NCBI GenBank assembly: GCA_902618795.1
Contig: CACNCF010000003.1
Coordinates: forward strand, 1 to 64,000
Source of the DNA: an uncultured Prochlorococcus sp.
GTDB taxonomy: Bacteria > Cyanobacteriota > Cyanobacteriia > PCC-6307 > Cyanobiaceae
Direction of reading: 5' to 3'
DNA length: 64,000 bases
Shown: positions 11,187 through 47,300 of the stretch, piece by piece
How positions within the stretch are numbered: position 1 is the stretch's first letter
Layout: each line of letters starts with the position of its first letter
Translations under genes and position numbers: made by a program
The notes under the pieces: generated by a model
What the model was told of the DNA's origin: nothing
Databases searched by the model: none
What the model saw: only the letters and a program-made list of their open reading frames with translations

Positions 11187-11444
11187 TTATTTAGTTTTTA
11201 ATTCCTTCAACAAAGATGATTCCATATCAAGGCAATCAATTGGAAGTCCTTGACCAATAGCGATTAAAAGAGGTGCAAGAATTCCTAAAGTAAAAACTAA
11301 ATTTGATTGGCTTACATCATATTTACTCAAAGTAAAAGTTATCAAATAAATAATTGAAAAATAAGCATGTAGTGAAAAAAATTCTTTTGGCTTTAATACT
11401 GGCCATCTTAAAGTATTTCCCAAGAAATATAAAAAACCTGTCAT
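11187..11444 (-). CDS. Small membrane protein (85 aa), cyanobacterial hypothetical
   Basis: Starts MTGFLYFLGNTLRWPVLKPK and contains two hydrophobic stretches (ACYF..IIYLITFTL region and LVFTLGILAPLLIAIGQGLP), so probably two transmembrane helices, with a short soluble C-terminus ending KELKTK. No recognised family. It converges with nfu (22 bp gap). Confidence 0.65.
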   Translation of the reverse strand: MTGFLYFLGNTLRWPVLKPKEFFSLHAYFSIIYLITFTLSKYDVSQSNLVFTLGILAPLLIAIGQGLPIDCLDMESSLLKELKTK

Positions 11445-11594
11445 AAATAAATAGTTACATGAAGATTAAACCAAATATAAACATAAACCTTTTTAGAGAC
11501 TATTTATAAATAAATTTACCTAAGATAATAATTAAAAAAACATTAAATCTTCGTTTCTATTTGTAAAAGCTAGACATGCAGCTAAAAATACGCT

Positions 11595-11600
11595 TATAAT
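11595..11600 (+). promoter_or_regulatory. Candidate -10 box of the riboswitch/DUF4278 transcript
   Basis: TATAAT hexamer 25 bp before the riboswitch P1 stem, giving a predicted transcript start near 11606-11608 that would include the entire aptamer. No clear -35 box is visible, as is common in these genomes. Confidence 0.5.
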
Positions 11601-11625
11601 TATTTGGTAGCAATAGCTACTTTTT

Positions 11626-11671
11626 CGTTCACCCTCATTTGAGGGCGCAGTTCGAGTCATACCATGGAACG
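11626..11671 (+). ncRNA. Glutamine riboswitch, Downstream-peptide type
   Basis: Closing stem P1 is CGTTC (11626-11630) with GAACG (11667-11671), five perfect pairs. Inside it, stem CCCTC/GAGGG (11632-11636 with 11641-11645) has an ATTT loop, followed at once by the conserved CGCAGTTCGAGTC segment. This arrangement (CGTTCACCC, hairpin, GGGCGCAG, closing GAACG) is that of the glnA/Downstream-peptide glutamine aptamers known from cyanobacteria. It immediately precedes a small peptide gene, as the motif name implies. A G-rich GGGGGA follows P1 and could be the occluded ribosome-binding site. Published cyanobacterial examples raise expression when glutamine is abundant; the direction here is inferred. 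Confidence 0.85.
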
Positions 11672-11699
11672 GGGGATGGCCGTGTTGTCACATCGAAAC

Positions 11700-11873
11700 A
11701 TGACTACTTTAACTTACAGAGGTAAAAACTACGTTCAAAACAAAGAAGCTGCTAAAAAGCAACTTGTTGAACTTACCTACAGAAGAAACGTATACACCAA
11801 TAGAATGGATGACGCTTCTTCAAGTAATGAAAAAGCAGAATTAAATTATAGAGGTATTAATTACACTAAATAA
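11700..11873 (+). CDS. DUF4278 small protein under glutamine riboswitch control
   Basis: 57 aa from ATG 11700, beginning MTTLTYRGKNYVQNKEAAKK. The LTYRGxxY repeat unit, seen at the N-terminus, in the middle (LTYRRNVY) and at the C-terminus (LNYRGINY), is typical of DUF4278. In-frame ATGs at 11664 and 11676 would add MERGMAVLSHRN, but those bases lie in or just after the riboswitch and are probably conserved as RNA, so 11700 is preferred. A strong terminator follows. The peptide is likely a nitrogen-status effector; its target is unknown. Confidence 0.78.
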   Translation: MTTLTYRGKNYVQNKEAAKKQLVELTYRRNVYTNRMDDASSSNEKAELNYRGINYTK

Positions 11874-11888
11874 TTTAATTAAAAAATT

Positions 11889-11917
11889 AAAAGCCCCTTT
11901 TCAGGGGCTTTTTTTTT
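11889..11917 (+). terminator. Intrinsic terminator after the DUF4278 gene
   Basis: Stem AAAGCCCCT/AGGGGCTTT with loop TTTC and a run of T. Nine base pairs, GC-rich core; one of the clearest terminators in the window. Confidence 0.9.
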
Positions 11918-46998: not shown

Positions 46999-47300
46999 AA
47001 TATTTGATTTCCTTCTTACAGGATATAAAATTACATATTTTAAAGTCTATTTACTCATAAACCTAGAATACGTGAATGCGGGGATTTCTCTCGATAATTT
47101 CAGTCCCTATTGTCGCTAGTAATTATAAAGCGAAGTCTTATCAGACTAATTGATTGAACTTAAATTTTCGAATAATCCCATTCTCAGGAATACGCTTCCT
47201 ATATTTTGGAATTTGCTAAATTTCAGGCGGACTATCAATCATTTAGATTGCCTCCGAACTCAACATTTATAAATTACTCCTTTTTATATTTACAGTAAAT
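46966..47300 (-). ncRNA. Candidate structured non-coding RNA ending in a strong terminator
   Basis: This ~500 bp gap (46896-47403) has no protein-coding frame. On the minus strand it contains several hairpins (CAATC/GATTG near 47240; GGAA/TTCC near 47190; AGTCT/AGACT near 47140) and comparatively GC-rich blocks, and ends at the terminator below. The layout fits a small RNA of about 200-320 nt; a 6S-type RNA is possible, but I cannot match it to a family. Exact 5' end unknown. Confidence 0.4.

Follow-up and report, generated by a model that had tools for sequence, protein, structure and literature searches.

A glutamine-II riboswitch with a putative NtcA operator at its predicted transcription start, leading a small DUF4278 gene of Prochlorococcus

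Prochlorococcus has few regulators but nonetheless maintains several glutamine-II switches in each genome, set before the genes of tiny DUF4278-like proteins. How is one such switch wired to its gene, where does the encoded protein begin, and what precedes the aptamer? The locus described here raises all three questions within a few hundred bases. It lies on the plus strand of a 64-kb window (the whole stretch of DNA that was analysed) from an incomplete genome of 1,073,069 bases. The original prediction, made from the letters of the window, had read it as a glutamine riboswitch of the Downstream-peptide class driving a DUF4278 peptide.

The aptamer and its relatives

The Infernal search that the original prediction had proposed bears out the class, with a covariance match far above the gathering score. 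Infernal cmscan places Glutamine-II (RF01704, formerly Downstream-peptide) at 11623-11680 on the plus strand with 67.5 bits against a gathering score of 33 (E = 3.7e-14, for the whole 64-kb window against 4227 families), and the match spans model positions 1-60 of 60. Residue roles come from the account of the crystal structure 6QN3 (PMC6698751), whose numbering we transferred to the locus by our own mapping: C1-C5 correspond to 11626-11630, C17-G18-C19 to 11646-11648, A33-U34-G35 to 11664-11666, G36-G40 to 11667-11671, and G41 and G42 to 11672 and 11673. The five-pair pseudoknot helix PK (CGTTC/GAACG, 11626-11630/11667-11671), P1 (CCCTC/GAGGG, 11632-11636/11641-11645), the linking strand CGCA (11646-11649, next base G) and P2 (seven pairs with A11661 bulged, 11656-11663/11674-11680) are all present, as are the conserved core residues described for 6QN3 (CGCA, A33, G35, G41/G42). 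The CCCTC/GAGGG hairpin and the CGCAG segment had both been recognized at the outset. Two other details are corrected here. The helix CGTTC/GAACG, which had been called a P1 stem with five perfect pairs, does have its five pairs, but it is the ligand-binding pseudoknot, and the hairpin is the real P1. The G-rich stretch following the pseudoknot helix, which had been taken for a ribosome-binding-like sequence, is actually the ligand-binding aptamer core plus P2.

Loss of pairing in close relatives had been named as a possible refutation. The pseudoknot pairing persists, and at some loci both of its sides change together (e.g., CGTCC/GGACG and CGTTG/CAACG). By sequence and predicted structure, the aptamer is a member of the Glutamine-II riboswitch class; L-glutamine binding itself is taken from papers on other members.

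The RF01704 motif occurs in 148 of the 151 genus genomes searched and in 65 of 101 family genomes, with the genome of the locus included in both counts. Named genomes were also scanned, and the 80 closest relatives kept bear the title Prochlorococcus or, for a few, uncultured Synechococcaceae. NifU and methyltransferase motifs both flank the gene in 77 of 80 orthologue loci; the three exceptions, all on short stretches, each miss one flanking motif (NifU or methyltransferase). Among viral contigs, 17 stretches fitted a pattern for relatives and none was confirmed. Between NifU and the riboswitch gene lies an 85-aa open reading frame (ORF) on the opposite strand (11187-11444, minus) with no match in Pfam. 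Elsewhere in the window, the Yfr8/9 RNA (Rfam RF02360) was found at 47039-47264 on the plus strand (full model, 256.5 bits); in MED4, Yfr8 and Yfr9 are described as an overlapping RNA pair (PMC2518516).

Two further glutamine-II matches are present in the same genome, C19 (68.7 bits) and C2 (52.5 bits). The third copy (L003; G000:C2:27018-27075, minus strand) precedes a 56-aa ORF lacking DUF4278, for which the best Pfam match, 12.9 bits, is below the cut-off. In a further set of glutamine-II loci (L226, L229, L231-L233, L237, L242-L244 and L246-L248), the pseudoknot is changed to CGTCC/GGACG and the aptamer stands ahead of a conserved peptide of 33 aa, MVNMYFNGKSFVYC...LTYRG..Y; a Pfam scan of one of these peptides gave no match.

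A palindrome at the predicted transcription start

The TATAAT at 11595-11600 had been noted as a -10 box, which stands. It follows a -35 element, TAGACA (11571-11576), after an 18-nt spacer, so that the candidate promoter at 11571-11600 (plus strand) has 11 of 12 consensus matches. A promoter scan returned 3 promoter-like sites against a mean of 2.5 in shuffles, and the promoter evidence is therefore weak taken alone; the -10 box and its spacing to a downstream palindrome recur in orthologues. The palindrome, GTAGCAATAGCTAC at 11607-11620 (plus strand), has the form GTAGC-N4-GCTAC, in agreement with the NtcA consensus GTAN8TAC. We predict transcription to start at the first G of the palindrome, an assignment that draws on the mapping of Yfr6 in MED4 together with the C19 locus and is uncertain by a few bases. 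The Yfr6 transcript is reported to begin at a G, and nucleotide 97 is given for its peptide frame (PMC1242208); when this distance is counted out at the C19 locus, rather than in MED4, the G falls on the palindrome's first base, to within a few bases.

To follow the palindrome across the riboswitch class, we used a set of records built from an aptamer regular expression. The expression gave 210 records, of which two (L240 and the minus-strand L127 record) were false and dropped, leaving a main set of 208. It had missed 24 loci; 23 were added, L157 being left out as the same site as L214, for a total of 231 records, which are distinct sequences yet not independent, 81 of them being near-identical locus orthologues. 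Within 30 bases before the aptamer, GTAN8TAC is found in 216 of the 231 (81/81 locus orthologues, 135/150 others). Exactly GTAGC-N4-GCTAC is seen in 186 of the 216 sites, and both inner pairs are complementary in 202, allowing G-T. (These strict figures supersede those for a looser pattern, GTN10AC, found in 217 of 222 records.) The 15 records in which GTAN8TAC is absent are L003, L178, L198, L206, L225, L250, L236, L241 and seven of one DUF4278 paralogue group (L154-L156 and L158-L161). The seven have a glutamine-II aptamer (47-51 bits for the three run through cmscan) and carry a GTATCA..GAAC-like stretch further upstream; in five of them, GTT-N8-TAC takes the place of GTAN8TAC.

The genome of the locus has GTAGCN4GCTAC at two sites, each of them at a glutamine-II riboswitch. 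Nine genomes together hold 27 sites, 19 of which coincide with glutamine-II matches by coordinate comparison. The remaining eight are mixed: some are coding (e.g., clpX of G218), and in G220 one follows a glutamine synthetase gene on the 3' side, ahead of a minus-strand ORF (gene names from translations). As a control we reversed the pattern. The reversed form is absent or rare in low-GC genomes, with none in the genome of the locus, but in three larger genomes it is commoner than the pattern itself (27, 19 and 13 against 5, 5 and 3), so for these the argument rests on position and not on rarity.

NtcA sites near the transcription start are reported to repress (PMC8092223), and at this locus GTAN8TAC is close to the predicted start, as at NtcA-repressed genes. 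A site atop the start would fit repression by NtcA, and we infer both its binding and its repression here from the motif and its placement. In four loci (L116, L124, L137 and L138), a recurring GTATC/GTAGC with GAAC some bases after it is found ~55-75 bases before the aptamer, upstream of the promoter; by eye, this stretch resembles a second, degenerate NtcA site.

Instead of being an NtcA operator, or besides being one, the palindrome could be kept as a 5'-terminal RNA hairpin, serving for example transcript stability. Its inner pairs do covary: across 49 distinct 14-mers, 97.1% of cells are paired against 94.0% in shuffles, three pairs have changed on both sides, and none of 500 shuffles scores as high. 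Moreover, L225 (upstream of 301-362) carries GTCGTCACCACGAC, in which five pairs are kept and GTA..TAC is lost. The glnA/amt loci scanned in the nine genomes lack GTAN8TAC in 8 of 17 cases; the 12 NtcA-like boxes listed upstream of the genes at the others, some perhaps there by chance, have zero or one inner pair each, so that none has both, against 202 of the 216 riboswitch sites. However, two-sided symmetry is also expected of the DNA site of a dimer, and the covariation score is equally high when the palindrome is slid by -3 (0.151 vs 0.140), in a test whose shuffles leave relatedness in. At the fifth pair, C-A outnumbers T-G by 13:3 in the main set and 13:6 with the added loci (6:4, a small margin, by distinct 14-mers), whereas selection on an RNA should favour G-U. 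These counts are mild. Because the slid control scores as high and C-A mismatches exceed T-G wobbles, we favour, without certainty, the palindrome as the predicted DNA operator of a dimer whose transcript happens to fold; the RNA hairpin comes second and strikes us as improbable.

Taking the palindrome as a DNA operator, we lean, at slightly better than even odds, to a more general statement: the transcripts of the glutamine-II class start within an NtcA operator of their own, and do so in paralogues whose small proteins differ. If so, the first 14 nt would be both repressor site and RNA 5' end, which would put an AND gate (low 2-oxoglutarate plus high glutamine) within one short leader. Our search of the literature, as far as its accessible text extends, did not notice this operator position across the riboswitch class, and we make no claim that it is unpublished.

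Mode of action, start codon and protein

For the type-2 switch of a Prochlorococcus strain, glutamine binding is reported to activate expression (PMC6316151), and the ON direction assumed here comes from such other members of the class. Huang et al. thought the switch translational because the aptamer is close to the start codon (PMC6698751). We weigh against this the folding at our locus and its relatives, where the start region opens modestly and inconsistently. With the aptamer formed, the mean unpaired probability predicted for the start region rises from 0.43 to 0.63 in 35 near-identical locus orthologues, from 0.47 to 0.52 in 87 other records and from 0.65 to 0.67 in 18 yfr6-type records; in a sample of 60, the gain in opening is 0.069, against 0.037 (sd 0.10) for shuffled tails. 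Under a second constraint scheme, the start codon of the locus opened when the fold was cut at 11720 and closed when it was cut at 11735 or 11760. As the outcome at the locus varies with the coding length folded and with the constraints, we infer the expression platform, which would be a translational one, instead of reading it from the fold.

A specific OFF pairing was set aside: AGUCAU (11655-11660) with AUGACU (11700-11705) was a candidate noted by eye, and when the leader was scanned for duplexes with six segments of the aptamer, no segment was preferred in all groups. Among the locus orthologues none stood out (mean z -0.21 to 0.93). In the yfr6-type group the two strands of P2 did (-1.89, -1.68), and the remaining records gave a slight score for the pseudoknot 5' strand together with P1 (-0.70).

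Control through transcription termination instead of translation is very unlikely. The palindrome with its T's (11606-11621) does score as terminator-like on the plus strand, but it is located before the aptamer; no terminator-like site is listed on that strand from the aptamer to the start codon, all others falling after the ORF, and the aptamer ends only 19 nt from the start codon. These 19 nt are the leader (11681-11699, plus strand). A Shine-Dalgarno match (GGAG, GAGG or AGGA, 4-16 bases upstream of the start) is found there in 0 of 81 locus-orthologue records, against 91 of 119 other records with a recognized ORF (8 further records, in which no ORF was recognized, were left out).

Two in-frame ATGs, at 11664 and 11676 (11664-11678, plus strand), are present inside the aptamer upstream of ATG 11700. 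The original prediction had placed them in or just after the aptamer, adding that the N-terminal extension MERGMAVLSHRN may be an RNA by-product. The comparison supports this. ATG 11664 is the core A33-U34-G35, and ATG 11676 lies within the P2 3' strand. All 208 of the 208 main-set records have A at position 33, and position 34 varies freely (168 T, 25 A, 9 C, 6 G); constraints on the RNA core thus account for the "ATG" at 11664. The frame is not kept in relatives: beyond the locus orthologue group, the aptamer ATG is mostly out of frame or absent (15 in frame, 67 out of frame and 34 absent among 116 distinct records). A one-base, frame-breaking deletion falls between 11676 and 11700 in 3 of the 81 orthologue records (L052, L099 and L103). 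In the ORF from 11700, variable sites at codon positions 1/2/3 number 7/3/21 (33 distinct orthologue ORFs), against 3/2/2 in the 24-nt extension 11676-11699, which has no third-position bias in a small sample of 7 sites. A 69- or 65-aa protein starting at 11664 or 11676, with an aptamer-encoded N-terminus, is scarcely credible on these figures: the frame is open from 11664 and is kept in 40 of 45 distinct locus-orthologue records, but 3 of the 45 are out of frame and 2 have no aptamer ATG, and the Pfam DUF4278 match starts only at residue 14 of the long ORF. The third-position bias that begins at ATG 11700, the frame-breaking deletions upstream of it and the loss of frame in relatives make this codon the most likely start, giving 57 residues, and the matter appears settled as far as comparison allows.

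The 57-aa peptide with repeated units that had been predicted is thus an ORF of 57 codons from ATG 11700 (11700-11873, plus strand; stop TAA at 11871-11873) with three LxYRxxxY repeats. Scanned from 11664, the ORF matches PF14105, DUF4278, with 41.6 bits against a gathering cut-off of 25.3 (E = 1.6e-10). The profile covers nearly the whole length of the 57-aa protein, and 14 columns are invariant among 18 homologues. Against solved structures, phmmer gave two chance-level matches (E 0.8 and 1.6) and a profile search gave none; an AlphaFold model from 18 sequences (mean pLDDT 70.5, pTM 0.27) is too weak for fold searching. NCBIfam returned one match, far under the cut-off, for the 57-aa protein and none for two homologues. 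The strong terminator placed after the ORF is also confirmed, with a 10-bp stem at 11889-11912 and a T run to 11917 (plus strand); the terminator pattern was found in 64 of 80 orthologue loci.

The proposed circuit and known systems

We put at about 80% the whole explanation, namely a type-2 riboswitch mRNA that is glutamine-ON, has an NtcA operator at +1 and encodes a nitrogen-damping protein. The transcript would run from ~11607 to ~11917. When nitrogen is short, active NtcA would sit on the +1 operator and block transcription. When nitrogen is plentiful, NtcA would leave; high glutamine would bind the pseudoknot CGUUC/GAACG and stabilize P2, opening translation of the 57-aa DUF4278 protein from AUG 11700 on. 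With the NtcA block and the glutamine ON switch combined, the protein would be made only when both signals report plentiful nitrogen. For Yfr6 of MED4, a fall upon nitrogen depletion has been reported, in a signal that the figure legend calls inconstant (PMC1242208).

What the protein does is the weakest step of this explanation; most likely, it damps nitrogen assimilation. Picocyanobacteria appear, in the account of PMC6316151, to be without full-length inactivating factors, and the same source describes the DUF4278-bearing N-terminus of the inactivating factor IF17 as stabilizing IF17 while being dispensable for inhibition. Together these speak against a direct inhibitor role. The target of these small proteins would be glutamine synthetase or another point of nitrogen metabolism, in cells that reportedly have no classical inactivating factors. 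With the start codon, the context for ribosome binding and the putative +1 operator assigned, an experimenter can choose the peptide to express and the mutations that would tell the NtcA input apart from the glutamine input.

With RF01704 and 6QN3 the locus shares the full-length covariance match, PK, P1, CGCA, A33, G35 and G41/G42; it differs in that P2 of the locus orthologues contains a bulged A and, within the 3' strand, an ATG, and in its leader lacking a Shine-Dalgarno match. In MED4, PMM1846 is like the locus in joining a small DUF4278 protein, a type-2 riboswitch and an NtcA motif (PMC6316151). PMM3822n of that strain is described as the ORF of a ~250-nt mRNA that, in its 5' part, clusters with yfr6 (PMC1242208). 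The paralogue at C19 in the genome of the locus resembles Yfr6, its MED4 counterpart, and its peptide is 63% identical to the 57-aa protein over residues 3-37. PMED4_04601, for which 67% identity with the Yfr6 peptide has been reported (PMC2518516), may be the MED4 orthologue of the locus gene, as suggested by that identity only.

Outside the marine picocyanobacteria, Synechocystis gifB/IF17 offers a likeness in what is reported of it: DUF4278, a glutamine-on switch and NtcA repression (PMC6316151, PMC7760959), the NtcA part at our locus being a prediction. The wiring proposed here would be that reported for gifB, the gene of a glutamine synthetase inhibitor. Unlike the locus, gifB has a type-1 aptamer, and IF17 is a protein of 149 aa in which the DUF4278-bearing N-terminus can be dispensed with for inhibition. 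Synechocystis PirA, too, is a small protein under nitrogen regulation, and the NtcA sites of its gene are positioned for repression (PMC8092223), but those sites are centred at -33.5 and -48.5, against +1 at the locus, and PirA is reported absent from marine picocyanobacteria. PMC6316151 describes type-2 glutamine riboswitches as confined to the marine picocyanobacteria, where they occur in multiple copies and are associated with DUF4278 genes, and as far as that description goes, the locus is of this known kind, the type-2 glutamine riboswitch/DUF4278 arrangement. Beyond it, the sequence comparison suggests one added regularity, a putative operator at +1, and with it NtcA repression and glutamine activation of one and the same transcript.
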